Positions 4,239 through 20,422 of a stretch of DNA of 25,778 nucleotides are shown in pieces. The DNA lies in IMG/VR virus record IMGVR_UViG_3300043419_001132, positions 1 through 25,778 of that record; one strand, given 5' to 3'. The notes beneath the pieces were generated by a model, which was not told the origin of the DNA, searched no databases, and worked only from the letters and a program-made list of their open reading frames with translations. The DNA is from a virus. Numbering within the stretch: the first letter of the stretch is position 1; every line of letters starts with the position of its first letter. The position numbers were made by a program, and so were the translations under genes.

Positions 4239-4685
4239 GTGAAGCCAACTGCATTTATTTTTGACGTAGATGGAACACTGGCAAATGTAGATCCATATCT
4301 GCATCTTGTTAGAGGCTCCAATAAAGATTACGATGCCTTTCATGAGGCCTCTATAGATGCCCTTCCACATTATGAAGTTGTTGATATGCTAAATAAAACA
4401 GTTTCTGATGGGCACTCAGTATTAATTGTTACCTCAAGAAAAGAGAAGTGGCGTGGTCTAACATCTATGTGGCTTGCACGTAACAACATAAGATCTAATG
4501 CACTCTTTATGCGTTCAGATGATGACCACAGACCAGACTATGAAGTTAAAAAAGATATACTTGATAAAATTAATAAATATTGGCATGTGCTTCATGCAGT
4601 AGATGATAACCCATCAGTCATACAGTTATGGCAAGAAAACGATATTCCAACTACTAAAATTGGCACTTGGGATGGCAAGAAATGA
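4239..4685 (+). CDS. HAD-family phosphatase resembling polynucleotide 3'-phosphatase
   Basis: A 148-residue protein with a GTG start. FIFDVDGT (D9, D11) is the HAD nucleophile motif; VTSR around residue 66 and the acidic DDNP late in the chain complete the HAD pattern. The text around DYDAFHEAS and FMRSDDDHRPD closely resembles the phosphatase half of T4 polynucleotide kinase (PseT). It removes 3'-phosphates or acts on another phosphate ester. The kinase half is absent. Translation is coupled to the sulfotransferase at 4682 (ATGA), so a role in tRNA or RNA repair, or in nucleotide clean-up for that pathway, is possible. Confidence 0.75.
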   Translation: MKPTAFIFDVDGTLANVDPYLHLVRGSNKDYDAFHEASIDALPHYEVVDMLNKTVSDGHSVLIVTSRKEKWRGLTSMWLARNNIRSNALFMRSDDDHRPDYEVKKDILDKINKYWHVLHAVDDNPSVIQLWQENDIPTTKIGTWDGKK

Positions 4686-5233
4686 CAACAAGTTCTGATC
4701 ATGTTATAGTTTCATATCCAAGATCTGGAAGCAATTACTTTCAACTTGCATGGAAAGATAAAAATAAACAACATGTTGAATGTCTTAGATCATCCAAACT
4801 AATATATAAGATATCAAAGAATGATAATAAAAAGATTATTGGATTAATAAGAAATCCTGTCGATGCAATATCTTCTAGAGTATTAATAGGCAGGACTCAT
4901 GAAAATACTTCTGGCACAGAAGAAGATATGGTTAAGTTTTCAATATCTGAATACATAATGATTTACCACTATATTATAAAAAATGCACATTTTATAGTAG
5001 ATATCTCTGATTTAAGCAAAGTAGATAAACTTGTAGAGACTATATCAGGCTTGCAATCAAGTCCTATTGATCAGGGCATTCTTCAGAATAAACTAAATAA
5101 TATACCAAACTACTCTGCTAGTTTTGTTGGACATAAAGATTACGATGCAACAATTGATATAGTAAAAAATATGGATATTGAACTATGTCAGGCGCTGTAT
5201 GATATAGCATACTCAAAAAGATTAATGGTATAA
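4682..5233 (+). CDS. sulfotransferase family protein (copy 1)
   Basis: A 183-residue protein. SYPRSGSNYF (residues 11-20) matches the 5'-phosphosulfate-binding loop of PAPS-dependent sulfotransferases, and IRNPVDAISSR (56-66) matches the 3'-phosphate-binding segment. It is shorter than cellular enzymes (250-300 residues), as are the other two copies here. I choose ATG 4682, coupled to the preceding stop, over 4667. It would move sulfate from PAPS to a hydroxyl on a glycan, protein or small molecule. The donor could come from the APS-kinase-like enzyme at 16143-16904. Acceptor unknown. Confidence 0.75.
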   Translation: MTTSSDHVIVSYPRSGSNYFQLAWKDKNKQHVECLRSSKLIYKISKNDNKKIIGLIRNPVDAISSRVLIGRTHENTSGTEEDMVKFSISEYIMIYHYIIKNAHFIVDISDLSKVDKLVETISGLQSSPIDQGILQNKLNNIPNYSASFVGHKDYDATIDIVKNMDIELCQALYDIAYSKRLMV

Positions 5234-5234
5234 T
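5226..5234 (+). promoter_or_regulatory. extended -10 promoter, leaderless
   Basis: TGG-TATAAT followed by exactly 6 nt and ATG 5241. The box overlaps the stop codon of the sulfotransferase gene. No convincing -35. Confidence 0.55.
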
Positions 5235-5240
5235 AAAAAT

Positions 5241-5372
5241 ATGAAAGAAAAAGAAGTTTGCGAATATTGCAGTGACTCAGCCAAATTTAATGATGTTGGC
5301 CTAACTTCTGATGCAGAATACTCTATAGTAGGTGTTTGTGAGCATCACCTAGTCAATTATGGAGTCTCTTAG
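5241..5372 (+). CDS. small zinc ribbon, DUF7455-like
   Basis: A 43-residue protein from ATG 5241. CEYC (residues 7-10) and C33-E-H-H reproduce the CxxC...CxHH pattern seen in the larger DUF7455-like protein at 20415-20660, so the two look related. It starts 6 nt after a TGG-TATAAT box without a Shine-Dalgarno, implying leaderless expression. Its last 24 nt overlap the 3' end of the convergent gene 5349-5546. Zinc binding is likely; function unknown. Confidence 0.65.
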   Translation: MKEKEVCEYCSDSAKFNDVGLTSDAEYSIVGVCEHHLVNYGVS

Positions 5373-5546
5373 TACCTCTACGCTTGATGGCTCTTGGCAG
5401 TTATTGCAATATGACGTTGGATGATCAGAATATCTTTCTCTATACCCGCTCAAAATAATCTTACCCTCTTTGTGCAGGCTGAGGTGTCTATCGTCTAAAG
5501 CCCCATAGACGATTGGGATAAGTTTTCCTTGACATGTTTGACACAT
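5349..5546 (-). CDS. small zinc-ribbon protein
   Basis: A 65-residue protein with CQTC at residues 2-5, LIPIVYGALDD, a Gly-containing middle, and CNNC at residues 47-50: a two-pair zinc ribbon of a type I recall from small actinobacterial proteins of unknown role. The ATG at 5546 is 6 nt after TGG-TAGACT on the minus strand, again suggesting a leaderless mRNA. It is an isolated minus-strand gene between plus-strand operons and overlaps the end of 5241-5372. Confidence 0.65.
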   Translation of the reverse strand: MCQTCQGKLIPIVYGALDDRHLSLHKEGKIILSGYRERYSDHPTSYCNNCQEPSSVEVLRDSIID

Positions 5547-5552
5547 AGTATA

Positions 5553-5561
5553 AGTCTACCA
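5553..5561 (-). promoter_or_regulatory. extended -10 promoter of the minus-strand zinc-ribbon gene
   Basis: TGG-TAGACT on the minus strand, 6 nt before ATG 5546. A second -10-like hexamer (TATACT) directly abuts the ATG but is too close to serve it. Confidence 0.45.
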
Positions 5562-5564
5562 TAC

Positions 5565-5593
5565 TGGACATCGGCTAGAAACTTTGATATACT
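5565..5593 (+). promoter_or_regulatory. strong promoter TGGACA-N17-TATACT, leaderless
   Basis: TGGACA at 5565-5570, a 17-nt spacer ending in TGA, then TATACT at 5588-5593. The second of two adjacent ATGs (5600) lies exactly 6 nt downstream, matching the window-wide rule and selecting that start. It is divergent from the promoter at 5553-5561. Confidence 0.7.
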
Positions 5594-5599
5594 TGAATG

Positions 5600-6133
5600 A
5601 TGAGGATCCTATTACCGTCTTACCCTAGATGTGGCACACACTTTCTGGCTGAACAGTTTTTACAAAAGACTGGGGTGGTTATGAACAAGACACATGCCCC
5701 AATGACTGGAAAATATGACTTATATGTAACACTGGTTCGAAACCCAAAAGACAGTATTGTTTCAAGGCTTGCCATGGAGTTGGAGTTTGAAGAAAATCCA
5801 AAAACTATGGAAGAATACTTGGAAATATGCAAACAGGAGTATATGGTTTTTTATAAATATATACTTAGACAGGTAGATATTATATTTCACTATGAAGATA
5901 TTTCCAACAATGTTGATAAAATGATTGATCACTTATGTGAAAAAACAAACATTAAAAGAATATCTGATGTATTCGTGGACAGCATAGTTGATAGACCTGC
6001 TACTGGGTTTTTAAAAACAAGCAAGAGTTCTTTAAGATATAGAGAATCAGAAGATTTTATGAAAGGTAAAGACCTTAGCGAATGCTATACTATATTTATG
6101 GAAGCAGAAAAAAGATCTGTGAGATTTAAATGA
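5600..6133 (+). CDS. sulfotransferase family protein (copy 2)
   Basis: A 177-residue protein from ATG 5600; an adjacent ATG at 5597 would add one Met, but promoter spacing favours 5600. LPSYPRCGTHFL (residues 5-16) is the PAPS 5'-phosphosulfate loop, KTH (30-32) resembles the catalytic-His region, and VRNPKDSIVSR (46-56) the 3'-phosphate site. The protein is helical and charged at the C-terminus. The last 4 nt overlap the JmjC-like oxygenase gene, so the two products are probably made together. It likely sulfates a hydroxyl on a protein or glycan; the neighbouring oxygenase could create that hydroxyl. Confidence 0.8.
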   Translation: MRILLPSYPRCGTHFLAEQFLQKTGVVMNKTHAPMTGKYDLYVTLVRNPKDSIVSRLAMELEFEENPKTMEEYLEICKQEYMVFYKYILRQVDIIFHYEDISNNVDKMIDHLCEKTNIKRISDVFVDSIVDRPATGFLKTSKSSLRYRESEDFMKGKDLSECYTIFMEAEKRSVRFK

Positions 6134-6684
6134 GTATCTTAAAAATATTAAACGAAAATGATCTTTGGGAAAATATTAAATCACAAAAACCATTTGTTTT
6201 TAGAAACTCAGGTTTACCAGAGGTAACATGGAAAGAGATTCTGTCACTTGTTTATTCAGATTTTAAAATAGGAAAGAGTCTTGGACAAGGTGATAAAGGT
6301 AGATATGATGAGTTTGGATTTAAGGTTATGAGAGCAGATAGAATTGAGGCTATTCATAGTGAAATCCAAGAACTAGAAAAACTATTTAATGTGTCTCAAG
6401 ACTTCACAGTTGTTCCTAGGGCTGCACACCAACTTTATATTAGCATAGCAACACAAGAAAGATCTTATGGTGTTCCACACAGTGATCCAGAAAATGTTTT
6501 CTTCTGGCAGTTACGTGGAAAAGGTAATTGGAAAATTTGGTCTGAAGATAAGCAAGAAGTTGAGTTAGATGAAGTTCTTCAACCAGGAGACATATTATAC
6601 TGTCCACCTAATAGAACACATCATGTTGTTGCTATTACACCAAGGGCTGGTGTTTCTATTGGATTTGGAGAACTAATTGAGTGA
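6130..6684 (+). CDS. JmjC/cupin-type 2-oxoglutarate Fe(II) oxygenase
   Basis: A 184-residue protein. H117-S-D119 followed by FFWQLRGKGNWKIW, then LQPGDILYCPPNRTHHVV with the distal His at 164 or 165, is the double-stranded beta-helix and iron triad of JmjC-like hydroxylases (ribosomal oxygenase/cupin-4 type). These hydroxylate amino-acid side chains using 2-oxoglutarate and oxygen. It overlaps the sulfotransferase gene before it by 4 nt and the nuclease-like gene after it by 8 nt. Substrate unknown; functional pairing with the sulfotransferase is my inference. Confidence 0.8.
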   Translation: MSILKILNENDLWENIKSQKPFVFRNSGLPEVTWKEILSLVYSDFKIGKSLGQGDKGRYDEFGFKVMRADRIEAIHSEIQELEKLFNVSQDFTVVPRAAHQLYISIATQERSYGVPHSDPENVFFWQLRGKGNWKIWSEDKQEVELDEVLQPGDILYCPPNRTHHVVAITPRAGVSIGFGELIE

Positions 6685-7090
6685 GTTAGATGTACCATGG
6701 TACAGAGATTTTCAATCAGAATCAAAAAGAAGTGGAGATCAGTTTGAAGACAGGGTTTATGAAGATTTGATTAGTCGTGGATTTAGTTCTATCGATAGAA
6801 ATTATTCTTTTGTTGGGATTGGCTGTGAGGTAGACTTTAGGGCTCACTCTGATACAAGGTTTGAGTACGTTGAAGCAAAAGGTGGCAACCCAGGAGAAGG
6901 CAAAAGGCCTGGGGCACAACGTACTGATAATGTAAAAAAGGCTATAGCAAATGGTGCTTTAATAAAAACATCCAACACGCTCTACTATGTTGTATATTTT
7001 TCTGCAAAGCCTGAGCCAGGAAGTTATTCTGATAATATGATAAATACTGCATTGAAACATAAGATAATCGATGAGGTTAGATATCTATAA
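6677..7090 (+). CDS. PD-(D/E)xK-like nuclease
   Basis: A 137-residue protein started at TTG 6677, supported by GGAG at 6667-6670; no in-frame ATG lies near. E24, then CEVDF (D53), then VEAKGG (E66, K68) fit the E...D...ExK core of the PD-(D/E)xK superfamily (restriction, Holliday-junction and VSR-like nucleases). The size suits a single minimal nuclease domain. There is no cognate methylase nearby. It could take part in host DNA degradation, DNA repair or exclusion of other phages. Confidence 0.6.
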   Translation: MSELDVPWYRDFQSESKRSGDQFEDRVYEDLISRGFSSIDRNYSFVGIGCEVDFRAHSDTRFEYVEAKGGNPGEGKRPGAQRTDNVKKAIANGALIKTSNTLYYVVYFSAKPEPGSYSDNMINTALKHKIIDEVRYL

Positions 7091-7126
7091 AAATATGCAT
7101 GTCATATTGCAAAAACTAAAAGAGTT

Positions 7127-7135
7127 TGCTACAAT
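7127..7135 (+). promoter_or_regulatory. extended -10 promoter, leaderless
   Basis: TGC-TACAAT followed by 6 nt and ATG 7142. The identical TGC-TACAAT precedes the divergent gene 7682-8383. Confidence 0.55.
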
Positions 7136-7141
7136 TGTATA

Positions 7142-7312
7142 ATGATCAAAAAAGCATACACATCAGATAAAAGAGATGGCTCTGGCCTTTTCTTTGTTCC
7201 AGAAGAAGTTCAACGTAGTATTCTTGTAGAGTATTTTTCTAGAAAATATTATTTGACAGTTGGATTCTTTATGTTTATTATTGGTGCATTATTTGGAATA
7301 CTAATAGGATAG
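7142..7312 (+). CDS. small C-terminal membrane-anchored protein
   Basis: A 56-residue protein from ATG 7142. The N-terminal 35 residues are charged, and residues 37-56 form one hydrophobic segment (LTVGFFMFIIGALFGILIG) that reaches the C-terminus, so it is tail-anchored. It has no Shine-Dalgarno; the ATG is 6 nt after TACAAT, implying a leaderless mRNA. Function unknown. Confidence 0.65.
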   Translation: MIKKAYTSDKRDGSGLFFVPEEVQRSILVEYFSRKYYLTVGFFMFIIGALFGILIG

Positions 7313-7321
7313 GTTAAAAAC

Positions 7322-7516
7322 ATGCCATGTAGTTGCGGATTTACAACAAACCAAGACAATACTTGTAATGGAAATCATAAGTTAGTTAAGTCTGTTAAAG
7401 ACAGAATTATTGAAGAGATTGAAAAGATTGATCTTGGAGAAGACAATTATCAATTAAATGCATTAGGTATGAAAATGCTTGTAATTGATACAATCAAAAA
7501 GGTAAAGGGTATTTAA
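7322..7516 (+). CDS. small Cys-rich protein
   Basis: A 64-residue protein. MPCSCGFTTNQDNTCNGNHK has a CSCG...C..NH arrangement reminiscent of small Zn or Fe-S fingers; the rest is a charged helix. It follows the membrane-protein gene by 9 nt with an AGG-rich weak ribosome site. Its stop codon lies inside the palindrome GTATTTAAATAC just before tRNA-Met. Function unknown. Confidence 0.6.
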   Translation: MPCSCGFTTNQDNTCNGNHKLVKSVKDRIIEEIEKIDLGEDNYQLNALGMKMLVIDTIKKVKGI

Positions 7517-7523
7517 ATACCAC

Positions 7524-7597
7524 GCACCAGTAGCCAAGTTGGTTAAGGCCCCGAACTCATAATTCGGTTATCGTAGGTTCAAGTCCTACCTGGTGTA
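7524..7597 (+). tRNA. tRNA with CAU anticodon (Met, possibly Ile2)
   Basis: Acceptor GCACCAG pairs with CTGGTGT; the anticodon stem CCGAA/TTCGG encloses CTCATAA, anticodon CAU; the T-arm is GTAGG-TTCAAGT-CCTAC. The anticodon stem lacks the three G:C pairs of initiators. Elongator Met is more likely than lysidine-type Ile because a tRNA reading AUA follows 4 nt later. CCA is not encoded. Confidence 0.9.
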
Positions 7598-7601
7598 CTA
7601 T

Positions 7602-7675
7602 GCATCTGTAACTCAGTTGGTTAGAGTACCTGCCTTATATGCAGAGAGCCGAAGGTTCAAGTCCTTCCAGATGTA
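7602..7675 (+). tRNA. tRNA-Ile (UAU)
   Basis: Acceptor GCATCTG pairs with CAGATGT; D-arm ACTC/GAGT; anticodon loop CTTATAT gives UAU, which reads the AUA codon directly. The outer pair of the anticodon stem (C27:A43) is mismatched, but the T-arm GAAGG-TTCAAGT-CCTTC is canonical. AUA is frequent in the genes around it. CCA is not encoded. Confidence 0.88.
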
Positions 7676-7681
7676 CAGAGT

Positions 7682-8383
7682 TTACCCTACATTTCCATTT
7701 CTTATATCTTGTAAGTGCATAAGCATATATTTGTATGGCCACATTCGAAAGTCGTGTCTTTTGTTCGGCAGATCCTTTACGTTGTATCCAATTAGAAGTT
7801 CTGGATTAACTGCTGCACCTTGAGCAATCATGCTATCTAAATTGCTATACACCTTGCCGTATTGGTTCATTATTTCTGGTGATCCTATTGCAAAGTAATC
7901 ATTGATTGCATAAGGCAAATCATAATCTTTGTATGGATTAAAGTCTTTTATATGTAAAAAATCCTTTTCATAATGATCTATAGGATTAACACAGTTAGGC
8001 ATAAAGAATATGTCTGACCTTATTCTAATAACATAATCATATACTATGTTATTTCTTTTTTCATAATCAAGCCTCATATCATTAACTCGCTCTATTCCAT
8101 AAAACTGTGAAACCATGGGTGGCGTATACCATGGGAAACGTGGATCTTGGACTATATCAGGCCTATTAAAATCAATCTTCTGCTGAAAGCATATATCCTT
8201 TGGCTTTATGGTCTCTACTATTCTATATATCTTTGAGTCTTTCTCTTCATTATTCATCCAAAAATGTGCAAAAATATCTACTTCATATTCTTTATTTGGT
8301 AGAATTAGGTTTTCATAATGATTATTAAAACAATCTAATATGTTTCTTATTTCTCCAGAGTATTGTATTGCTATTTTTTTCAT
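7682..8383 (-). CDS. putative glycosyltransferase-like protein
   Basis: A 233-residue protein. It opens with a beta strand and QYSGEIRNI, and has EVDIFAHFW around residue 35 and YDYVIRIRSDIFF near residue 120. The last looks like a GT-A fold with a DxD-like acidic residue after an RIR strand, as in capsule-locus glycosyltransferases. I cannot name the family. The ATG at 8383 is 8 nt downstream of TGC-TACAAT on the minus strand. The 3' end is convergent with tRNA-Ile (6 nt apart). Its context in a sugar and sulfate-modification block supports glycan transfer. Confidence 0.6.
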   Translation of the reverse strand: MKKIAIQYSGEIRNILDCFNNHYENLILPNKEYEVDIFAHFWMNNEEKDSKIYRIVETIKPKDICFQQKIDFNRPDIVQDPRFPWYTPPMVSQFYGIERVNDMRLDYEKRNNIVYDYVIRIRSDIFFMPNCVNPIDHYEKDFLHIKDFNPYKDYDLPYAINDYFAIGSPEIMNQYGKVYSNLDSMIAQGAAVNPELLIGYNVKDLPNKRHDFRMWPYKYMLMHLQDIRNGNVG

Positions 8384-8391
8384 AATGCTTT

Positions 8392-8400
8392 ATTGTAGCA
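8392..8400 (-). promoter_or_regulatory. extended -10 promoter of 7682-8383
   Basis: TGC-TACAAT on the minus strand, 8 nt before ATG 8383. It is back to back with the strong tRNA-Arg promoter starting at 8405. Confidence 0.5.
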
Positions 8401-8404
8401 TGGG

Positions 8405-8433
8405 TTGACATCTTTATAGCAAAAGTGTATACT
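8405..8433 (+). promoter_or_regulatory. consensus promoter TTGACA-N17-TATACT for tRNA-Arg
   Basis: TTGACA at 8405-8410, a 17-nt spacer, TATACT at 8428-8433. The predicted start site falls within 1-3 nt of the tRNA 5' end (8442), so little or no 5' leader needs to be removed. Confidence 0.75.
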
Positions 8434-8441
8434 TATATAAT

Positions 8442-8517
8442 ACCTCTGTAGTTCAGTGGACAGAACGTTGGACTTCTAAGCCAAGCGTCGCAGGTTCGAT
8501 TCCTGCCAGGGGTGCCA
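8442..8517 (+). tRNA. tRNA-Arg (UCU), CCA encoded
   Basis: Acceptor ACCTCTG pairs with CAGGGGT; anticodon loop CTTCTAA gives UCU for AGA; the T-arm GCAGG-TTCGATT-CCTGC is canonical. The pair closing the anticodon loop is A:G, a mismatch. Discriminator G at 8514 is followed by CCA at 8515-8517, the only tRNA here with CCA encoded. AGA is a common Arg codon in nearby genes. Confidence 0.9.
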
Positions 8518-8524
8518 GAATAAA

Positions 8525-8533
8525 TGATACAAT
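8525..8533 (+). promoter_or_regulatory. extended -10 promoter, leaderless
   Basis: TGA-TACAAT followed by exactly 6 nt and ATG 8540. It lies only 8 nt after the tRNA-Arg CCA end. Confidence 0.55.
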
Positions 8534-8539: not shown

Positions 8540-9883
8540 ATGAAAAAGAAGCCAAAACTGTTTATATTTGACCTGGATGGGGTCTTAGTTGACAGCAAAG
8601 AGGTTCATTTTCAATCTCTAAATGAAGCATTAAAAGAGATAGATCCAAGGTATGTTATAACAGATCAAGAGCAAAAAGATATTTATGAGGGCCTAAGTAC
8701 TAATCAAAAATTAAAGATATTATCTAAAAATAAAGGTCTTCCAGACTCTCAATATGATCGCATCTGGAAACTAAAACAAGAAAACTCTATAAAGTTCTTT
8801 AATAATCTTGGCATAGATCAAGAATTAGTTGAAATATTTTCAACAGTTAAGTCAAATAATATAATGATTGCTATTGCTAGTAATAGTATAAGACAAACAG
8901 TAGAGGCATGTATAAGTTCTCTTGGCATAAAAGAGTTTGTGAACTTCTATGTTACAAATGAAGACGGTATAGAGCCAAAGCCTAGTACAGATATGTATGT
9001 AAGATGTATGGAACACTTTAGTGCCATGAAACACGAGACCGTAATCTTTGAAGATAGTTACATTGGAAGAGTTGGATCAACCAATAGCGGTGCAAAGGTT
9101 GTGCATATAAAGGAAAGATCATATCTAACTAATGATGTAATTGAAGATTGTATAAATAGAAATAAGAAAAGAATAAACTTCTTAATTCCAATGGCTGGTG
9201 AGGGTAGCCGTTTTGCGGAACAAGGATACAAGGATATAAAGCCTTTAATCAAAGTAAATGACAAGAAGATGATAGAACTTATTCATGATAATCTTAATAT
9301 AGATGCACACTTTATTTTTGTAGTACAAGAAAAGCATCACGATCTTTTTAATATAGACAAAGAAATATCTAAGTTTTGCAAAGACTACACAATAGTAAAG
9401 CAAGAAGGAAGGCTAGAAGGTGCAGCGATGTCTGCATTATTGTCATCAGAAATAATCAATACAGATGCACCACTTATGATTGCAAACTCAGACCAGTTTG
9501 TTGTATGGAACAGTAAAAAAACTATAAACGATTTTATTGAGTCTGGTGTAGATGGGGCAATACTTACCTTTACAGCAACAGATAAGAAGTGGTCTTTTGT
9601 AAAAAGAAACTCTCATGGTTTTGTTTCTGCGGTTGCTGAAAAAAATGCAATAAGTGATGAGGCAACATGTGGAATATATTATTGGAAGCATGGATCAGAT
9701 TTTGTTAAGTATGCAAAACAGATGATAGAAAAGAATATTAGAACAAATAATGAATTTTATATCTGTCCAGTTTATAATGAAGCAATAGAAGATGAAAAAA
9801 TAATATCTGCTTATCCAGTCTATGAAATGTGGGGCCTTGGAACCCCTGAAGACCTAGAGACATTTCTAGATTTTCATCAATGA
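8540..9883 (+). CDS. HAD phosphatase fused to sugar-phosphate nucleotidyltransferase
   Basis: A 447-residue two-domain protein. Residues 1-205 are a HAD hydrolase of the phosphoglucomutase/phosphatase type (FIFDLDGVLVDS with D11 and D13; ASNS near 113-116; EPKPS; FEDS near 170). Residues 212-447 are an NTP_transferase domain (FLIPMAGEGSRF, residues 214-225; the metal-site region ANSDQF; GIYYW; late WGLGTPEDLE). It would dephosphorylate or isomerise a sugar phosphate and activate a sugar-1-phosphate to an NDP-sugar. It is coupled to the GDPD-like gene (ATGA at 9880) and has its own leaderless promoter. It could supply a donor for the glycosyltransferases nearby; the sugar is unknown. Confidence 0.8.
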   Translation: MKKKPKLFIFDLDGVLVDSKEVHFQSLNEALKEIDPRYVITDQEQKDIYEGLSTNQKLKILSKNKGLPDSQYDRIWKLKQENSIKFFNNLGIDQELVEIFSTVKSNNIMIAIASNSIRQTVEACISSLGIKEFVNFYVTNEDGIEPKPSTDMYVRCMEHFSAMKHETVIFEDSYIGRVGSTNSGAKVVHIKERSYLTNDVIEDCINRNKKRINFLIPMAGEGSRFAEQGYKDIKPLIKVNDKKMIELIHDNLNIDAHFIFVVQEKHHDLFNIDKEISKFCKDYTIVKQEGRLEGAAMSALLSSEIINTDAPLMIANSDQFVVWNSKKTINDFIESGVDGAILTFTATDKKWSFVKRNSHGFVSAVAEKNAISDEATCGIYYWKHGSDFVKYAKQMIEKNIRTNNEFYICPVYNEAIEDEKIISAYPVYEMWGLGTPEDLETFLDFHQ

Positions 9884-10335
9884 TAATTATTGCTCATAGG
9901 GCTAATATCTGTGGTCCTTCAGATAAAGAAAATTCTCCTGAGAGCATACTAAATGCTCTATACCTTGGATTTGACGTAGAACTTGACGTTTGGCTTGTAA
10001 ATGACCAACTAATGCTAGGCCATGATAGCCCACAGTATGCCCTTAAAAAGCCTCTGCTGGACCGTATAGGGGCTAATGGATGGTTTCACTGTAAGAACCT
10101 TGAAGCCTTAGAATACTTTAAAAATAACTTAGACAATCTTAACTATTTCTGGCATCAAATGGATGATTATACTATTACAAATAGTGGACATTTTTGGACC
10201 TACCCTGGCAAAAAAATATCAAGCAATTCTATAATTGTTTTGCCAGAACTTATAGATCAAAATGATTTAAAAGAAATGTTAGGCCAAAGCCCATACGGAA
10301 TCTGCACAGATTGGCCAATTGAATATGCAGATTGA
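9880..10335 (+). CDS. GDPD-like phosphodiesterase domain protein
   Basis: A 151-residue protein. IIIAHRAN at the N-terminus with ENSPESI, then FDVELDVWL and LMLGHDSP, follow the catalytic HR...EN...E.D...H pattern of glycerophosphodiester phosphodiesterases. YGICTDWPIEY near the end is the usual last strand of the barrel. It is shorter than typical GDPDs (about 240 residues), so parts of the barrel are reduced. It overlaps the HAD/nucleotidyltransferase gene by 4 nt, suggesting a role in the same sugar or lipid-head-group pathway. Confidence 0.7.
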   Translation: MIIIAHRANICGPSDKENSPESILNALYLGFDVELDVWLVNDQLMLGHDSPQYALKKPLLDRIGANGWFHCKNLEALEYFKNNLDNLNYFWHQMDDYTITNSGHFWTYPGKKISSNSIIVLPELIDQNDLKEMLGQSPYGICTDWPIEYAD

Positions 10336-10486
10336 TGAGAAGATTAATCAGGTTTTGCTAGAGGTGGGCCAAAGTATAAAGATACATACCATAGATAAAG
10401 ACAATATGATTATTGAATTAGACTATGAAAAATATGTAAACGTTTTATTAGAAATATTTAAAGATTACTGTCAGAACTCTCAATAG
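10325..10486 (+). CDS. small hypothetical protein, end of sugar cassette
   Basis: A 53-residue frame from ATG 10325 to TAG 10484-10486. It overlaps the GDPD-like gene by 11 nt and runs 29 nt into the 3' end of the convergent GT61 gene. The product is a charged helix pair (MQIDEKINQVLLEVGQSIKI...). Its AT-rich codon use fits its neighbours. No family recognised. Confidence 0.5.
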   Translation: MQIDEKINQVLLEVGQSIKIHTIDKDNMIIELDYEKYVNVLLEIFKDYCQNSQ

Positions 10487-11450
10487 CACGAATAATTTCT
10501 TGTGCTGTATGAGCGCCAAAACATTCAACTATTCTATGATCTCTTTCAAACCACTTAGACCAAAACATCGCAGCGTCGTGCTGTTGTGTTACTGAATTTC
10601 TTATTTCTATGATTTTGCAGTTTTTAGGAGCAAATAGAGTATTAACCATAGAACTTCCATTATAACTTACAATCTCTGAGCATGAAGACGCAAGATCTAC
10701 TTGCTCTTGAAATGTCATATCTTCAAAGTAAACCACAGAGTAGCCCTTGCTTATGTAGTATGCTGCAATTTCATCATCATCCTCTACTCTTCTTCCACCA
10801 TCATCTGCGGTAACTGCTTTTTTTCTGCTTACATATATTTTATTTTCATATGAGTATTTTTTTACAAACTTATTCCTTATAAGTTGTAACGAAGAATAAA
10901 AATTATCCATATTCCCAGTTGTTGATTCAGCAACAATCACTCTATCAAATGTAAGTTTGTCAAAATCTGCTATATTTACAATGCATGACTCGTAGTCTGG
11001 CAATCCTAATAGACTAAAAATTTCTTTATGAAATGCCTTTACTTGTTTCATTAAGAATGGCTCATGGTTTGGCATTTGCTTATAGTCAACAACTATAACT
11101 ATTTTTAAATCTTTAAATCCATGAGACTTTATAAATAAAATTTTACCTACAGCATCAATTAAGAAGTGGTGGAATGATGTTGTGTGATTGGTTAGAAAAA
11201 CTGGCACAGTTTCTTTGTTTGATCTAATGAGTTCTTTTTGCTTATTTTTTTCATTATAAAGGCTTAGACCATAATGTTCAGTTATTACTGGAGCAAGAAC
11301 TCTGACTGCCTCAACATTTTCTTCTCTGTAGTGTGGAACACCATCTGTTTTTCTTACAAGAGTTTGATTATGTATTAGTGGAGTATTTTTATATATAGAG
11401 TAATCAGATACTATTTTATAATAATTTCCATCTAAAAGAAAATTAAGCAT
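10458..11450 (-). CDS. glycosyltransferase, GT61 (DUF563) type, second copy
   Basis: A 330-residue protein. The C-terminal region has YVSRKK, then KGYSVVYFEDMTFQEQVDLA, then EIVSYNGSSMVNTLFAPK, the same order of motifs as the GT61 enzyme at 3150-4172, though the two are clearly diverged. The N-terminal half carries the VFLTNHTTSFHHFL region typical of the family. It lies at the downstream end of the long minus-strand gene series, 2 nt after the small gene 11453-11584. No strong ribosome site is visible, so translation is probably coupled. Donor sugar unknown. Confidence 0.8.
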   Translation of the reverse strand: MLNFLLDGNYYKIVSDYSIYKNTPLIHNQTLVRKTDGVPHYREENVEAVRVLAPVITEHYGLSLYNEKNKQKELIRSNKETVPVFLTNHTTSFHHFLIDAVGKILFIKSHGFKDLKIVIVVDYKQMPNHEPFLMKQVKAFHKEIFSLLGLPDYESCIVNIADFDKLTFDRVIVAESTTGNMDNFYSSLQLIRNKFVKKYSYENKIYVSRKKAVTADDGGRRVEDDDEIAAYYISKGYSVVYFEDMTFQEQVDLASSCSEIVSYNGSSMVNTLFAPKNCKIIEIRNSVTQQHDAAMFWSKWFERDHRIVECFGAHTAQEIIRAIESSDSNL

Positions 11451-15229: not shown

Positions 15230-15462
15230 TTGCCACCATCACGAACTAATAGCACGATTGCACCATTATCTTCTAATGCTTTTTTAACACGAATCATGTA
15301 CTCAACTGCACGAACCTTGTCTTCACCAGTAAGACCCATGAAGTGCTTTTCTGAAGCCTTAACAGTAATAAAAGTATCGTTGTCAACTAACTGCAAAGAA
15401 AACCCTTTAGGAGAAAAACTATCTAAAGATCTAAATGCTCTTCTCATTGAGTCTGTATACAT
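15226..15462 (-). CDS. hypothetical conserved-looking protein
   Basis: A 78-residue soluble protein, mixed alpha/beta (FSLQLVDNDTFITVKASE, then VEYMIRVKKALEDNGAIVLLVRDGGK). It has no metal or catalytic motif. It shares one nucleotide with the preceding gene's stop and 4 nt with the following start. Its C-terminal strand looks like a small ferredoxin-like fold, which is speculation. Confidence 0.6.
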   Translation of the reverse strand: MYTDSMRRAFRSLDSFSPKGFSLQLVDNDTFITVKASEKHFMGLTGEDKVRAVEYMIRVKKALEDNGAIVLLVRDGGK

Positions 15463-15680
15463 TATTCCTCTTTTCTCCAGTGTACGTATGATTTAATATA
15501 TACTGCTGCATAAGCAAGAGCCATTGCTATAAATCCATACTGATCTGTGGCAAGTGCATAAGCAATCCACAAGCACTCATTTACACATAGTATTAGCCAT
15601 CCCCAGATAGTCTTTCTTCCAACCAAGAAGATACCAGTTACACCAATTACTGCTAAAAGCCAAGACCAATATTGCATCAT
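15462..15680 (-). CDS. small membrane protein
   Basis: A 72-residue protein, almost entirely hydrophobic, with three short helices: WSWLLAVIGVTGIFLVG, IWGWLILCVNECLWIAYAL, and FIAMALAYAAVYIKSY. The pattern is reminiscent of half of a PnuC-like vitamin transporter, but it is too short for a full transporter. GGGG precedes the ATG and it overlaps the DUF2061 gene upstream by 4 nt. Confidence 0.6.
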   Translation of the reverse strand: MMQYWSWLLAVIGVTGIFLVGRKTIWGWLILCVNECLWIAYALATDQYGFIAMALAYAAVYIKSYVHWRKEE

Positions 15681-15880
15681 TTTCTACCCCATTGAATATA
15701 GTTCCAACCACGCTCATGTGCGTAGTAAATAAATACTTTAACTACCGTTTCCCAAAACGCAATCGTTACGGAAAGACCAGCATTTCTTGTAATAACATAG
15801 GCAACAGCAACAGAGGAAAGAGTTCCCCATATGCGATAACTTAATGCCTTAACAAATGATCTTGCCTTGGTTACTGTCAT
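15677..15880 (-). CDS. DUF2061 membrane protein (copy 1)
   Basis: A 67-residue protein. RSFVKALSYRIWGTLSSV, then a helix, then ETVVKVFIYYAHERGWNYI and WG is the DUF2061 signature: two membrane helices flanked by KSxxxR and YYxHERxW. No function is established for the family. It is coupled to a second DUF2061 gene immediately upstream (4-nt overlap) and is downstream of the APS-kinase fusion. Confidence 0.8.
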   Translation of the reverse strand: MTVTKARSFVKALSYRIWGTLSSVAVAYVITRNAGLSVTIAFWETVVKVFIYYAHERGWNYIQWGRK

Positions 15881-16080
15881 TCTTTACCCCACCTAACAGC
15901 ATTCCAAATTCTTTCATGGTAGTAATACGCAACAAAGTTAACAGCATTAGTTATTAATGTTGCTATGGTAGCCATGTTGATATCCTTACTTAAGGCATAC
16001 AGGGTTACAAATGTTGTTGTAAGCGCAACAACTCTCCAAGTTAAGGACTTTGCAAGAGACCTACTCTTTTTCACTTTCAT
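15877..16080 (-). CDS. DUF2061 membrane protein (copy 2)
   Basis: A 67-residue protein from ATG 16080, chosen because GGGAG lies just upstream; an earlier in-frame ATG at 16095 has no ribosome site. RSLAKSLTWRVVAL, a central helix, then VNFVAYYYHERIWNAVRWG match DUF2061. It differs from copy 1 at most positions outside the signature, so duplication is not recent. It follows the APS-kinase fusion gene after a 62-nt gap. Confidence 0.78.
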   Translation of the reverse strand: MKVKKSRSLAKSLTWRVVALTTTFVTLYALSKDINMATIATLITNAVNFVAYYYHERIWNAVRWGKE

Positions 16081-16142
16081 CTGGCTCCCATCCATACATT
16101 ACCCGCATCTCATTGTCTGCGATCTTGTTGTCAAAGAGTATA

Positions 16143-16904
16143 CTATATACCCAACTGCTTGCGTTTTTCAGTAGCGCTAATAGCATGAATGTCTGCCCCC
16201 AAATCCACTTGCTCAATCTTATATCCTACATCACGACCATATACAATATTGGTAATGTTAGGTAGTCTTAATACTAATGCTCCATCCATGAACTCATCCT
16301 TAGCGATGTAGCCCTTTACCTGATCAAAGGTGAGTGGGTCTTTCTCGCTTGTGTTGTATGTATTACGGACTCCCAGTAGTACTTGTTCTGTTCTCTTCCC
16401 CGCTTCTTTGTAAAGAGCGTGGTGGCCTTCGTGCCATGGCTGGTACCTACCTAGCATAAGTGTTGTAGGTGCAGACCAATCATGAAGATCAAAATTTGTT
16501 ATAATCTGCGTAGCCTTTTGATCTGGATTTAGTTCGTGATCATTATAAACTACATCAAAGTTTATTGGCTCTTCAAACATTTTGTTCGTGTCTTCGAAAC
16601 GACCTTCTTTGATAGTCTTCATGTATACTAGAATGTCTGGCTTACCGAATGCTGCACGAGTTAAGTCAGTTGGACAAACAAAGTCAACAATTACTGGAGC
16701 AACACCCTGCTTTGCAATAAGTCTTGCCATCTCACCCATGCGTCGTGCTTGTTCAAGTCGATCTTCTGGTGTAAAACCAAGATCAGAGTTGACTGTTGCA
16801 CGAACCTCATCTGCATTGAGATGAATTGCATTAATTCTTTCTTTTAGCGCTTTGGCTAGTTCTGTCTTACCGCTGCCTGGCAGCCCAATAATTTGTATGA
16901 TCAT
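16143..16904 (-). CDS. APS-kinase-like domain fused to HxGH nucleotidyltransferase
   Basis: A 253-residue protein. Residues 1-110: GLPGSGKT (Walker A, 7-14), NADEVR (30-35), EQARRMGEMA, then DFVCPT, in the order of adenylylsulfate kinase (CysC), which phosphorylates APS to PAPS. Residues 145-253: LGRYQPWHEGHHAL with H158 and H161, the HxGH site of nucleotidylyltransferases. The second domain might make APS or another nucleotide conjugate. It is the only obvious PAPS source for the three sulfotransferases. AGGAG precedes the ATG, downstream of a TATACT box. Confidence 0.75.
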   Translation of the reverse strand: MIIQIIGLPGSGKTELAKALKERINAIHLNADEVRATVNSDLGFTPEDRLEQARRMGEMARLIAKQGVAPVIVDFVCPTDLTRAAFGKPDILVYMKTIKEGRFEDTNKMFEEPINFDVVYNDHELNPDQKATQIITNFDLHDWSAPTTLMLGRYQPWHEGHHALYKEAGKRTEQVLLGVRNTYNTSEKDPLTFDQVKGYIAKDEFMDGALVLRLPNITNIVYGRDVGYKIEQVDLGADIHAISATEKRKQLGI

Positions 16905-16921
16905 TTTTCTCCTATGTAATA

Positions 16922-16927
16922 AGTATA
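16922..16927 (-). promoter_or_regulatory. -10 box TATACT of the APS-kinase fusion gene
   Basis: Minus strand TATACT with 17 nt to ATG 16904. The transcript would have an 11-nt leader that is essentially just the ribosome site (ATAGGAGAAAA). No convincing -35. Confidence 0.5.
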
Positions 16928-16952
16928 CACCATTGGCTTATGATGCAATATT

Positions 16953-17246
16953 TTATAAACCAGAAGACTCTGTTGTAAGATACTGCCAAGTATCTGCCCA
17001 GTCTTCTTTTGTTTTATGACTATTAAATTCTTTTGAGATTGCTCCACCCTCTAAATATATTCCTCCCCACACACCCCACTCTTTTGTGGACACACCAACA
17101 GCAAAGCATTGCTTTGATACTGGGCAATGTGAACAGACATTATCGACTGCAACCCTCAAAACTTCATCTTCTTCATACTTGTCAAAAAATATGTCTGTAT
17201 CATATTCAAAACAAGATGCATTATCTTTCCATTTATCCTTATGCAT
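16953..17246 (-). CDS. WhiB-like Fe-S transcription regulator
   Basis: A 97-residue protein. C12, then C38-SH-C41-PVSKQ-C47, is the four-cysteine [4Fe-4S] set of WhiB proteins, followed by the GVWGG turn (58-62) that contacts the primary sigma factor. Only actinobacteria and their phages carry this family. Phage copies act on host transcription and can confer superinfection exclusion. The ATG is 2 nt after the upstream stop with no ribosome site, so it is translationally coupled. It might tune the -10-dominated promoters of this phage. Confidence 0.92.
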   Translation of the reverse strand: MHKDKWKDNASCFEYDTDIFFDKYEEDEVLRVAVDNVCSHCPVSKQCFAVGVSTKEWGVWGGIYLEGGAISKEFNSHKTKEDWADTWQYLTTESSGL

Positions 17247-17248
17247 AA

Positions 17249-17458
17249 CTATACTGCAAACTTGTCAGGTAATTCCCATCCATCAGATCCCAATTGAAAT
17301 CTACGTGTGATGTGCCACTTACCATTTATGTAAGCGCCAAACTTAGATGTTGCACCCTTGTCAGAAGGGTAAGCATGAACTACGTCCCATCCATTCCAGG
17401 ATAATGACTTGTGGCTTGAAACAATCTTTTCCATCTTTTCTAGTTCTTTAACATTCAT
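17249..17458 (-). CDS. hypothetical protein
   Basis: A 69-residue protein: a charged N-terminal helix, then a Trp-rich beta segment (WNGWDVVHAYPSDKG, FGAYINGKWHITRRF). AAAGGAG precedes the ATG. Its stop is 2 nt from whiB, so the two are co-translated. No family recognised, but the pairing with whiB may be meaningful. Confidence 0.65.
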   Translation of the reverse strand: MNVKELEKMEKIVSSHKSLSWNGWDVVHAYPSDKGATSKFGAYINGKWHITRRFQLGSDGWELPDKFAV

Positions 17459-17469
17459 AGTGCTCTCCT

Positions 17470-17820
17470 TTAGTAATTAAAAATTCCTACATCGATTTTA
17501 TTAAGTTGTGCTTCTCCAACTAGCCTTGACAAACTTTCTTTTTCTTTTGACAGGAAGATAAAGTAGTTTACATCAGGCATGTTTTCCGAAATCCATTCTG
17601 GTGCAACCTTATAAAACTTAATCTTCTTTCCTCTAGTCTTCATTCCACGCTCTGATAGATTTACAAACTCCATGACCATTGAGTTAACTCTTTGTGGTCC
17701 TGCAGAATATATGTAAAAGTATGGATCGTTTTCTGGTAAACTAGAAAGTGCTACGCCCATAGAGCGCAAAAAGACATTGTAGTCTTCGAAACTATTCGTT
17801 CCCTGTACTCCCACGATCAT
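17470..17820 (-). CDS. putative SLOG / YspA-like nucleotide-binding protein
   Basis: A 116-residue protein. MIVGVQGTNSFEDYNVFL, then YFYIYSAGPQRVNSMVMEF, then KKIKFYKVAPEW follow the Rossmann-like order seen in YspA-type SLOG proteins (G-first strand, a phosphate-binding turn, then a later strand before W). The usual GG-x-x-G-A-D loop is altered to SAGPQRVNS, so ligand binding is uncertain. It overlaps the gene upstream by 29 nt. Confidence 0.5.
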   Translation of the reverse strand: MIVGVQGTNSFEDYNVFLRSMGVALSSLPENDPYFYIYSAGPQRVNSMVMEFVNLSERGMKTRGKKIKFYKVAPEWISENMPDVNYFIFLSKEKESLSRLVGEAQLNKIDVGIFNY

Positions 17821-18214
17821 CTTCTAGTCCTTCCCTTAATCTGTCCATGATGAACAGCATTTTATCTAATTCTACCTTACTCATACCTATTGTGTCAACT
17901 ACCTCTGTTGTTTCTGAGTCAACGCCATCATTCATTACATTTGCTTTATAGAATACATTTTCCTTTACCCAGTAAGCAGTTCCACCAACTATTATTACTC
18001 GTATATTTGTTTTTTCATCATACTTGCTTGACTGAGATATTCTTTTTTTAATAGGCTTATTACTGATATGTGGAAGCAGTGGTTGAACCAGATCATATAT
18101 ATGGCTCTGACTATACCTGACTGTGACCTTTTGTTTTACAACTTCTTCCTTTCTAATGAAGGATATTGTTAAAATTAACAAAAAAGTAGTAAAAGATCCT
18201 ATTAAATATTCCAT
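17792..18214 (-). CDS. hypothetical N-terminally anchored membrane protein
   Basis: A 140-residue protein: one hydrophobic segment at residues 4-20, a basic stretch, then a soluble region with a hydrophobic strand (NIRVIIVGGTAYWV) and an acidic C-terminus. AAGGGG is its ribosome site. Family unknown. It lies between the SLOG-like gene and a redox/nuclease group. Confidence 0.6.
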   Translation of the reverse strand: MEYLIGSFTTFLLILTISFIRKEEVVKQKVTVRYSQSHIYDLVQPLLPHISNKPIKKRISQSSKYDEKTNIRVIIVGGTAYWVKENVFYKANVMNDGVDSETTEVVDTIGMSKVELDKMLFIMDRLREGLEDDRGSTGNE

Positions 18215-18235
18215 TTAACCCCTTATTCAATTGTA

Positions 18236-18568
18236 CTACTTTTCTTTTTTAGTGGCCTCTACGACTTGGCTAAGACTATGCCTAGAATTCTTATCTAGTG
18301 TCTTAGTTGCATCTTCGTCCAATGCCTTTTCTGTTATAGATACCATTGGGTCATCTGATTCAAGATCTATGTCTAAAAATCCCTTTTCCCATAGATTCAT
18401 CATCTCTAAGTAAAAATAATTTTTTGCAGCGGAGTGCAACTCAGGATTAATCTCTTCTAATTTATCAGTAAAACTGTACAGTGCTTCTCCAGTGTTTATG
18501 TCAATGGCAGCAACTTCAAGTCCACCGTTTAGAATTAAACCCTCAATAATCTCATCTTCCCTATCCAT
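18236..18568 (-). CDS. hypothetical acidic protein
   Basis: A 110-residue protein. MDREDEIIEGLILNGGLEVA and LWEKGFLDIDLESDDP give the impression of a conserved actinophage protein of unknown role; it ends in a Lys-rich helix. It has no metal motif. It overlaps the thioredoxin gene by 8 nt and so is co-expressed with it. Confidence 0.65.
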   Translation of the reverse strand: MDREDEIIEGLILNGGLEVAAIDINTGEALYSFTDKLEEINPELHSAAKNYFYLEMMNLWEKGFLDIDLESDDPMVSITEKALDEDATKTLDKNSRHSLSQVVEATKKEK

Positions 18569-18809
18569 TTAGAAAGTCCTTTAGTTGATCTTTTGTTTTT
18601 GCTCCGTTAGTTCTTGCAATCTCTTCCCCATCATCTATTAAGATAAAGGTTGGAATGCTCATAACCTTAAAGTTTTTGACCATATCTGTTTCAGAGTCAG
18701 CATCGATAAACTTGATGTTTGCACCCTCTGAGATTAACTCTTCAGCAAATGGCTTAGTTCTTTGACACGGGTTACACCAGTCTGCGGTAAAGTAAAGTAG
18801 ATGTCTCAC
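18561..18809 (-). CDS. thioredoxin-like protein
   Basis: An 82-residue protein with ADWCNPC (C12, C15) as the redox site, cis-Pro53 in SIPTF, and a DDGEEIARTNGA turn typical of the thioredoxin fold. It lacks the first strand and helix of full-length thioredoxins (about 105 residues), as is usual for phage glutaredoxin-sized forms. It may supply electrons to ribonucleotide reductase or keep proteins reduced. It overlaps the nuclease gene by 4 nt. Confidence 0.9.
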   Translation of the reverse strand: MRHLLYFTADWCNPCQRTKPFAEELISEGANIKFIDADSETDMVKNFKVMSIPTFILIDDGEEIARTNGAKTKDQLKDFLNG

Positions 18810-19213
18810 TTACCAGACTTCTTTCTTGCTTTTGCAAGGGCATCAAAGTCTTTTACCTTTGTGTCACCTAAGTACCCCCAGGCATAACCATCATTGATCA
18901 TCATGTCATTAAGAGATACTGTGTCTCCATTAATATATACCCAGCCTAAAATACGACCATACTTCTCAGATGAATCCATCTTTTCTGTCTTGATTACAAC
19001 AGACTTGGCATCCTTTAGAGATTTCTTTAGGTATTCTTTAGACTCAAGGCCAAGTGCCTTTTCTTTAAGATCTTTTGTACGAGACTCAGGAGTATCAATA
19101 CCAGCCAACCTCACACGGGATTGAAATAAAATATCAAACCCTAAATCAATAAGAACGTCAATGGTATCTCCATCTACTACATTCTCTACTTTTCTTACAT
19201 AGTATTCGTACAT
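18806..19213 (-). CDS. staphylococcal-nuclease-like thermonuclease
   Basis: A 135-residue protein. VVDGDTIDV, then RVRLAGIDTPES (R35, D40, E43), and EKYGR (R87) are the SNase catalytic residues at almost the same numbering as the staphylococcal enzyme. There is no signal peptide, so it acts inside the cell. Likely host or competitor DNA/RNA degradation. AGGAG lies before the ATG. Confidence 0.9.
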   Translation of the reverse strand: MYEYYVRKVENVVDGDTIDVLIDLGFDILFQSRVRLAGIDTPESRTKDLKEKALGLESKEYLKKSLKDAKSVVIKTEKMDSSEKYGRILGWVYINGDTVSLNDMMINDGYAWGYLGDTKVKDFDALAKARKKSGK

Positions 19214-19223
19214 TATTTATCTC

Positions 19224-19799
19224 CTATTTTATATACTTGTTTGGCATTATATCAAAAAGCAGATGGATTCTTTCTGTATCTCCGCCATTGATAGCACCAT
19301 GTAGTCTCGCATTGTTAATTTCCCAACAATCTCCAACTTTTAGATGCTTTTTGTCTTGATCAATTAAAAATAGTGCACTTTCATTTGTCTTAATTGCTAT
19401 GTGGTGCCTATGAATAAGTGCAAGGTAGTCTCCATCATCATTATGCTGATAGACAACCTTTTCTTCTGGAAGCCTTAAAAAAATAACACGAGCAAATTTG
19501 CCATCATGCATATTCTCATATACTTCTACTATAGGCTTAATTAATTCCCACAACTCTGCATCATAAAAAACTAGTTTTGGGTCAAATGGATCACCAATCT
19601 CCCATTCTGGAAGTGATGAAACAAAAAGAGATGTTGTTTCTTTATGAACAAATGGTGGAGACTGCTGTCTAGTTTTATTTAAATACCAGACCTCTTCTGG
19701 GTATGACTCAAGTTTTTCTCTTATGCTAGTCACATCATGATTGCCGTAATACTTGTACAGCCAATCTTCTTCTCTTTTTTGTTCTATAAGAGTTTTCAT
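19224..19799 (-). CDS. Asp/Asn beta-hydroxylase-like 2OG oxygenase
   Basis: A 191-residue protein. YQHNDDG (H119, D121), then IHRHHIAIKTN, then RLHGAINGGDTERIHLL (H167, R177) match the iron and 2-oxoglutarate sites of the aspartyl/asparaginyl beta-hydroxylase family. Such enzymes hydroxylate protein or peptide side chains. Its ATG overlaps the sulfotransferase stop by 4 nt, the same arrangement as at 6130, which suggests a hydroxylation-sulfation pair. Substrate unknown. Confidence 0.85.
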   Translation of the reverse strand: MKTLIEQKREEDWLYKYYGNHDVTSIREKLESYPEEVWYLNKTRQQSPPFVHKETTSLFVSSLPEWEIGDPFDPKLVFYDAELWELIKPIVEVYENMHDGKFARVIFLRLPEEKVVYQHNDDGDYLALIHRHHIAIKTNESALFLIDQDKKHLKVGDCWEINNARLHGAINGGDTERIHLLFDIMPNKYIK

Positions 19800-20422
19800 T
19801 TAAGTTCCTCCAGTATCTCTTTATATATATCCATAGACTCTTTATAGCCATCGAATTTTAGTAGGTGCCTCTTGATATTTTGATACTCACCTGTGTCTCT
19901 GGAATTTCTTGGAATATGACCAGAAAAGACTCCCTCTCCCCTAGTGAAGTCTTGAAATTTAATCTTATCAATTACATCCAAGTCGGTTATTGTCTTGCTA
20001 TAGTTTAACCCTAAGTCAGAGTAGATGGAGTTTAGTACAGAGTTAATGTCAGAAGTCAGGTTTTCAAACAATATCATTTTAGAATTTTTATTTCTTATCC
20101 ATTCATTATAGAATAGATTATATGATATAACTGTTTGATTACATAAAGACTCTGCGCCGTCCTCTGAAAGCATATCAGTGGATGTATAGTTTCCATCATA
20201 TAAGCAGTTGCTAATGATTGTATCTTCTGGATTTCTTAAGATGCTTACCTGGTAGAAATTTGATGATTGTGGAATTCTTTGAAGAAACTTATTGTGCATG
20301 TGGCTATTTATATTATACATTTTCCAGTCCACATCGTTAGCAAAATATGATAACTCTAATGCTGTTGACAGGAAAGTATTTCCAGTTCTTCTAAACGAAT
20401 TCAGCACAACATCTTTAGTCAT
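19796..20422 (-). CDS. sulfotransferase family protein (copy 3)
   Basis: A 208-residue protein from ATG 20422, chosen over an in-frame TTG at 20431 because AGAGG is correctly spaced and the ATG overlaps the preceding stop. NSFRRTGNTFL (8-18) is the PAPS-binding loop and LRNPEDTIISN (62-72) the 3'-phosphate site, though the loop has R-R-T-G in place of the commoner P-R-S-G. It is diverged from the other two copies. It is transcribed with a 2OG oxygenase, a nuclease and thioredoxin. Confidence 0.78.
   Translation of the reverse strand: MTKDVVLNSFRRTGNTFLSTALELSYFANDVDWKMYNINSHMHNKFLQRIPQSSNFYQVSILRNPEDTIISNCLYDGNYTSTDMLSEDGAESLCNQTVISYNLFYNEWIRNKNSKMILFENLTSDINSVLNSIYSDLGLNYSKTITDLDVIDKIKFQDFTRGEGVFSGHIPRNSRDTGEYQNIKRHLLKFDGYKESMDIYKEILEELK

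Follow-up and report, generated by a model that had tools for sequence, protein, structure and literature searches.

Does a phage that encodes sulfotransferases also make the activated sulfate that these enzymes consume? This question is raised by the linear IMG/VR record IMGVR_UViG_3300043419_001132, whose 25,778 bases were analysed as a whole (the window; our phage entry G000 comprises no more than these 25.8 kb). The original prediction, made from the letters alone, saw in it three sulfotransferases dependent on 3'-phosphoadenosine-5'-phosphosulfate (PAPS) and a fusion protein, similar to adenosine-5'-phosphosulfate (APS) kinases, that could supply PAPS. The three genes are named ST1, ST2 and ST3 here, and the fusion KIN. 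Our results indicate that these parts are real and that, judged from sequence, they probably form a working sulfation module. We further propose, as a somewhat probable reading, that KIN is a compact PAPS synthase feeding enzymes which hydroxylate a target and then sulfate it.

The three genes, each with both PAPS-binding motifs, were all located where the original prediction had placed them (4682, 5600 and, on the minus strand, 20422), the start of ST2 being 5597 and position 5600 its second Met. ST1 (4682-5233, plus strand) carries SYPRSG and RNPVD, ST2 (5597-6133, plus strand) has the full signature of a PAPS-dependent sulfotransferase (SYPRCG, KTH and RNPKD), and ST3 (19796-20422, minus strand, with a possible alternative upstream TTG start at 20431) carries SFRRTG, SHMH and RNPED. 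They match Sulfotransfer_1 at 4e-4, 1.1e-6 and 1.3e-5, respectively; ST2 (28.7 bits) and ST3 (25.2 bits) score above the curated Pfam cut-off of 22 bits, and ST1 (20.3 bits), which is homologous to ST2 (phmmer 4e-8), falls narrowly below it. Further analysis of a 61-sequence family alignment (A9) that includes all three proteins showed that columns R11, G13, P50 and S56 are invariant in 61/61 members, and both the 5'-phosphosulfate loop and the 3'-phosphate motif (RxP.....S) are present in ST1, ST2 and ST3. The catalytic His33 is found in 56 of the 61 members, ST2 and ST3 among them. In ST1 and its near relatives this column holds Arg, which makes the activity of ST1 uncertain; the protein could have lost activity or could rely on a different base. 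The A9 profile matches sulfotransferases in the PDB at 1.2e-7, and the AlphaFold model of ST2 (pLDDT 96.5) adopts a sulfotransferase fold, its top 25 PDB matches by Foldseek being sulfotransferases, mostly bound to 3'-phosphoadenosine-5'-phosphate (PAP) or PAPS (E from 3.7e-5, TM ~0.45-0.58). Profile search and structure prediction thus agree far beyond chance, and they lead to PAP/PAPS-bound sulfotransferases and not to other P-loop families. These data support well the identity of the three genes as sulfotransferases, with a complete active-site signature in two of the three. No relatives of these proteins were found by tblastn among 50,697 phage records.

The sulfotransferase genes have their closest partners in genes for 2-oxoglutarate oxygenases. 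The stop codon of ST2 overlaps in ATGA, at 6130, the start codon of a JmjC/cupin 2-oxoglutarate oxygenase gene (6130-6684, plus strand; JmjC_2 3.5e-12), whose product scores 46.4 bits against the PF08007 (JmjC_2) cut-off of 22. In the same way, the stop of ST3 overlaps, at 19799, the start of a gene for an Asp/Asn beta-hydroxylase-like oxygenase, AspH (19224-19799, minus strand; Asp_Arg_Hydrox 4.8e-11; 43.2 bits against 22.6 for PF05118). A third ATGA overlap, at 4682, joins the stop of a HAD_PNKP-type phosphatase gene (4239-4685, plus strand; Pfam HAD_PNKP 2.8e-21) to the start of ST1. The order ST1-ST2-JmjC recurs in three loci (L003, L004 and L134), and ST3-AspH in two (L023 and L071). Moreover, of the 13 AspH homologues in the KIN-selected loci, 11 lie immediately next to a sulfotransferase, against a background of 1.6% of other genes (P=1e-16); two of these 11 sulfotransferases are of class D, which is not identified by Pfam. 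Triads of sulfotransferase, AspH and KIN occur in seven KIN-selected loci as well as in L222 and in L261, the latter with the order AspH-KIN-ST on a Bacteroidetes-binned contig, and in the window the ST3-AspH pair lies 2.3 kb from KIN. This recurrent cluster of sulfotransferase, Asp-hydroxylase and kinase fusion is new here, and no description of it was found in the literature. Since ST2 and ST3 are each translationally coupled to a 2-oxoglutarate oxygenase, hydroxylation followed by sulfation is the likely chemistry. The original prediction had named glycans of the virion or host surface as possible targets, which this partnership with oxygenases, rather than with glycosyltransferases, does not favour. 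The HAD_PNKP homologues adjoin sulfotransferases in 4 of 18 non-identical cases (at loci including L003, L147 and L155), and, as no CysQ homologue was found in the searched loci of these phages, the enzyme could remove the 3'-phosphate of PAP, which makes it a speculative candidate PAP 3'-phosphatase. By eye, other redox partners (2OG-FeII_Oxy_3 proteins, luciferase-like monooxygenases, tryptophan halogenase and peroxidase) were seen near sulfotransferases, and SGNH-like proteins also adjoin them (loci L150, L156, L157, L162, L168, L170, L193, L196 and L209).

KIN (16143-16904, minus strand) combines an APS-kinase-like domain (residues ~1-135) with an adenylyltransferase domain (~145-253) that resembles nicotinamide mononucleotide (NMN) adenylyltransferases (NMNATs). 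Residues 1-84 match APS kinases in Pfam (APS_kinase 3.6e-15; 56.7 bits, cut-off 21.1) and in the PDB (2.7e-11), and the stretch NADxVR...GF..DR is kept in alignment with APS kinases. The predicted APS-kinase-like fusion is therefore borne out for the N-terminal half, whereas the C-terminal half is NMNAT-like and, by sequence, not an ATP sulfurylase. Its similarity to NMNATs is clear but its membership is not, with 27.6 bits against a PRK01153 cut-off of 127. An AlphaFold model of KIN, built with 12 close sequences, reached a pLDDT of only 36, too low to be used. PAPS synthase and coenzyme A synthase are known to be built on the same principle, an adenylyltransferase fused to a 3'-kinase. In the phosphoramidate pathway of Campylobacter (Cj1415/Cj1416), a CysC-like kinase is paired with a nucleotidyltransferase of a different family and with a different product, so a CysC-like protein need not mean PAPS.

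KIN homologues were found in at least 597 stretches of viral contigs, and the best 80 of these, at 84-91% identity, belong to phages of ~115 kb. In this large family of phages, which have genomes of ~115 kb and carry WhiB, KIN is a core gene and the sulfotransferases are variable accessories. Iterated profiles recovered 263 sulfotransferase-like open reading frames of several classes, a figure that does not give the number of distinct genes because the loci overlap; by profile, the near-complete KIN-bearing genomes G008 and G007 hold five and four sulfotransferases. An APS_kinase match was present in 21 of the 23 virus records with an ST2-like gene, including all of at least 60 kb, the two without it being fragments of 56 and 28 kb. 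As KIN is core in the lineage, this co-occurrence alone could come from shared ancestry, and our co-occurrence tests ignore phylogeny and genome completeness. A sulfotransferase stands directly beside KIN at 6 of 67 non-redundant loci, where 1.2 were expected (P=5e-4); two of the loci concerned (L074 and L084) are related, the class at L251 was defined after that locus had been seen, and the hidden Markov model (HMM) classes C and D were excluded because their scanned members are unrecognised by Pfam. These KIN-adjacent genes belong to Sulfotransfer_1, Sulfotransfer_2 and Sulfotransfer_3, which indicates that the position next to KIN recurs with different families. A role of KIN as a dedicated partner gene of sulfotransferases was rejected, since it is core with or without detectable sulfotransferases. 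Two phage records, G033 (L213/L232) and G038 (L212/L231), each carry two KIN-type genes ~13 kb apart.

Fused or split into two adjacent genes, KIN is also chromosomal in SAR11, in SAR86 and in alphaproteobacteria that we tentatively take as HIMB59-like, which is a second new finding. Among 30 genomes with KIN or its split halves, Sulfotransfer_1, the one Pfam family with which bacterial sulfotransferases were sought, matched in 26, CysD in one and Sat in none, and controls do detect these families. The bacteria examined have sulfotransferases that need PAPS, no recognised ATP sulfurylase and an NMNAT-like gene fused with or adjacent to the APS-kinase-like one, and the simplest reading, which is also our most interesting claim, is that the NMNAT-like protein would form APS. 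At 26 loci of one HIMB59-like lineage, the split pair has the gene for the PAP phosphatase CysQ (TIGR01331 at 288 bits, above the cut-off) only ~10 bp upstream, and in a SAR11 surface-polysaccharide cluster with sugar genes (L251) a sulfotransferase directly follows KIN. Across 197 SAR11-family genomes, Sulfotransfer_1 was matched in 68% of those with KIN and in 33% of those without it (odds ratio 4.3, P=1e-6, without correction for phylogeny or completeness). In the KIN-free SAR11-family genome G179, a sulfotransferase is directly followed by CysD (contig C3:27770-29418), a canonical pairing of donor and sulfotransferase. In SAR86 and SAR11, the split pair was seen near a DMSP-demethylase-like gene (DmdA family; L264, L268, L272, L273, L278 and L287), and a contig of a Chitinophagaceae metagenome-assembled genome with an 86% identical KIN (L248) is probably a mis-binned phage contig.

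If KIN acts as proposed, its NMNAT-like domain would convert ATP and sulfate to APS, its truncated APS-kinase domain would phosphorylate the 3'-OH to yield PAPS, and the interchangeable sulfotransferases would use this PAPS. The oxygenases, JmjC-like with ST2 and Asp/Asn-hydroxylase-like with ST3, would hydroxylate the target, and the new hydroxyl group would then be sulfated. Sequences and structures show to which families the sulfotransferases and oxygenases belong, of which domains KIN is made, and that the genes are coupled and co-occur; we infer the synthesis of PAPS by KIN, the replacement of ATP sulfurylase by its C-terminal domain, the reaction order and the target. The rapid turnover of sulfotransferases and their partners while KIN stays makes it plausible that the targets lie on surfaces or virions and are under selection between host and phage; sulfation of glycans or virions, superinfection exclusion and masking are guesses. 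The earlier suggestion that the fusion could supply PAPS gains from the gene clusters, the co-occurrence, the CysQ operon and the lack of other ATP sulfurylases in the bacteria with the pair, but KIN is core and also present without detectable sulfotransferases. Still more tentatively, with slightly less than even confidence, we suggest that KIN and its split form may represent a third way of activating sulfate that has not been described, in which an NMNAT-like ATP sulfurylase of ~110 aa and a lid-less APS kinase would make PAPS only for sulfation, in streamlined bacteria that do not reduce sulfate (SAR11, SAR86, HIMB59-like) and as a core actinophage enzyme paired with hydroxylase-sulfotransferase couples.

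The likely setting in the phage bears on these readings. With its five tRNAs, its WhiB gene and a gene for a CHAP endolysin, the window is taken as part of a phage that probably infects an actinobacterium. The WhiB-like regulator (16953-17246, minus strand; Pfam Whib 7.6e-12) is a marker of Actinobacteria hosts to which the host evidence is limited. The host is probably a freshwater actinobacterium, with acI as a likely group. A DNA search found no relatives of the window among cultured phages.

Several observations weigh against KIN as a PAPS synthase for sulfation. Its score for the TIGR00455 APS-kinase equivalog is far below the cut-off (58.9 against 138.7 bits), the APS_kinase match stops at model position 90 of 152, so that the C-terminal half including the lid is unaligned, and the C-terminal domain resembles NMN adenylyltransferase (PDB 1.9e-9), with ATP sulfurylase (Sat, PF01747) touched by only 2 of 20 such domains (best E=0.013). 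The near-complete genomes G003, G005 and G006 yielded few sulfotransferases or none, with a single Sulfotransfer_3 match in G005. KIN homologues also occur in two cultured phages of 56 kb in which neither Sulfotransfer_2 nor Sulfotransfer_3 was matched; in one of the two, a NADAR gene stands beside KIN. At 6 of 80 loci, KIN has a PnuC-like gene in its vicinity. In SAR11, 38 genomes with KIN have no Sulfotransfer_1 match and 26 with a sulfotransferase have no KIN; CysD was matched in 4 of these 26, in 2 over cut-off, and as a test of complementary distribution (canonical CysD in sulfotransferase-bearing, KIN-free SAR11) this is weak. NadD was not found in six SAR86 genomes. Part of this evidence, namely the nearness of the C-terminal domain to NMNAT, the NADAR neighbour in a Casjensviridae phage, the PnuC-like genes and the missing NadD in SAR86, would fit a KIN that serves NAD or another nucleotide cofactor, with an NMN adenylyltransferase joined to a nucleoside or nucleotide kinase and the sulfotransferases nearby only because they share a variable region. 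We regard this main alternative as unlikely. The N-terminal domain is that of an APS kinase and not of a ribosylnicotinamide kinase, the CysQ operon, the triads and the missing ATP sulfurylase all speak for sulfate, and a normal NadD is also present in 20 of the 30 KIN-bearing genomes, which weakens a role in NAD.

Somewhat less probable again is that KIN is only an APS kinase, or a similar enzyme, acting on APS made by the host, with the C-terminal domain in another role and the sulfotransferases using the resulting PAPS. The N-terminal domain is indeed the sole part with clear homology to the sulfate pathway, and cysC has already been reported in phages (PMC10914622). However, cultured acI genomes are without assimilatory sulfate reduction (PMC5301498), KIN-bearing bacteria have sulfotransferases with no Sat and almost no CysD, and in the members examined the C-terminal domain always accompanies the N-terminal one, whether the two are fused or encoded by adjacent genes. 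If acI is the host, the lack of this pathway makes sulfation a better fit than assimilation, and it likewise counts against the published view that phage cysC and cysH boost assimilatory sulfate reduction in the host (PMC10914622), here for cysteine supply with the sulfotransferases as unrelated cargo. That view is very improbable for KIN, which is flanked by sulfotransferases in gene clusters and has CysQ beside its split form. Most improbable of all is that the sulfotransferase-fold proteins lack sulfotransferase activity, as relatives that have become inactive or as P-loop kinases of another kind. The loss of the catalytic His in ST1 and the lack of a Pfam match for the scanned members of the HMM-linked classes C and D would fit this, but the profile and fold matches, together with R.P.....S and His in ST2 and ST3, argue against it. 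On balance, a PAPS-making KIN that serves sulfation remains the reading we prefer.

Downstream of KIN, a small membrane protein (15877-16095, minus strand) is a near-invariant neighbour, found no more than 300 nt from KIN at 72 of the 80 surveyed loci. The same survey revealed a second copy (15677-15880, minus strand), and a third protein of this kind lies at 22265-22483; we tentatively read all of them as DUF2061-like. The KIN-adjacent proteins are candidates for a sulfate or anion permease. A short PnuC-like membrane protein (15462-15680) is possibly relevant to a role in NAD, and its homologue L170:5829-6107 is probably the member that matches NMN_transporter at 9.4e-6. The Casjensviridae phages Bhz60 (L233) and Clavibacter phage 33 (L235) carry a KIN homologue with cysteine dioxygenase nearby, the neighbour in Bhz60 being NADAR, so that the same fusion stands in another setting there. 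Of the four glycosyltransferases originally counted, Pfam supports three, all on the minus strand and with only a putative link to sulfation: two of family GT61 (3150-4370, Glyco_transf_61 1.2e-19; 10458-11450, 3.7e-19) and one of GlcNAc type (20668-21663, GlcNAc 1.4e-18). The fourth (7682-8383, minus strand) is of uncertain identity, its sole match being phrog_13607, a PHROG without an assigned function. Adjoining a GT61 gene, a fusion of HAD and sugar-nucleotidyltransferase domains (8540-9883) overlaps a GDPD-like gene (9880-10335), and homologues of both are present in L003, L004, L023, L071 and L075.

If the proposed role of KIN holds, it would explain how sulfotransferases of abundant bacteria without sulfate reduction obtain their donor, and many phage 'cysC' genes would be reassigned from sulfur assimilation to sulfation. 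It predicts that one short protein turns ATP and sulfate into PAPS. The hydroxylase-sulfotransferase couples would then be a new kind of phage-encoded modification, with a directly searchable target. The open-access literature yielded neither a paper that links sulfotransferases of phages to an enzyme supplying their donor nor a description of KIN as a PAPS synthase. The original prediction knew of no phage system of this composition; phage cysC (PMC10914622) and phage sulfotransferases (PMC10580990) have each been published.

The COBRA study (PMC10914622) reported cysC auxiliary metabolic genes in large genomes of freshwater phages, and WhiB-bearing phages occur in the same study, but it read these genes as assimilatory sulfate reduction, and the word sulfotransferase is absent from the paper. 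The sulfotransferases of OM43 phages and Synechococcus phage S-SRM01, whose function was called unclear (PMC10580990), resemble those of the window in being encoded by aquatic phages, but they belong to the Sulfotransfer_3 family, and no donor-making gene was discussed. Compared with cytosolic sulfotransferases (SULT/Sulfotransfer_1; ~280-300 aa), with which they share the SYPRxG P-loop, the catalytic His, RNPxD...S and the predicted fold, the phage proteins are shorter (178-208 aa), form a phage-specific family and, in ST1, have lost the His. Like the PAPS synthases (PAPSS1/2, CysNC and the fungal or bacterial Sat-APS kinase fusions), KIN couples an APS-kinase domain to an adenylyltransferase, with PAPS as the proposed product. 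In contrast, it has ~253 aa instead of ~550-630, its adenylyltransferase half is NMNAT-like and not Sat or CysDN, and its alignment to the APS-kinase model leaves out the second half, to which the lid belongs. With the NMN adenylyltransferases NadM and NadR, the C-terminal domain of KIN has the GR-x-QP-x-H-x-GH and ISAT..R motifs in common, whereas its size of ~110 aa, its scores far under the NMNAT cut-offs, its invariant PN...YGR.VGY block and its APS-kinase-like partner, constant in the members examined, set it apart from them.

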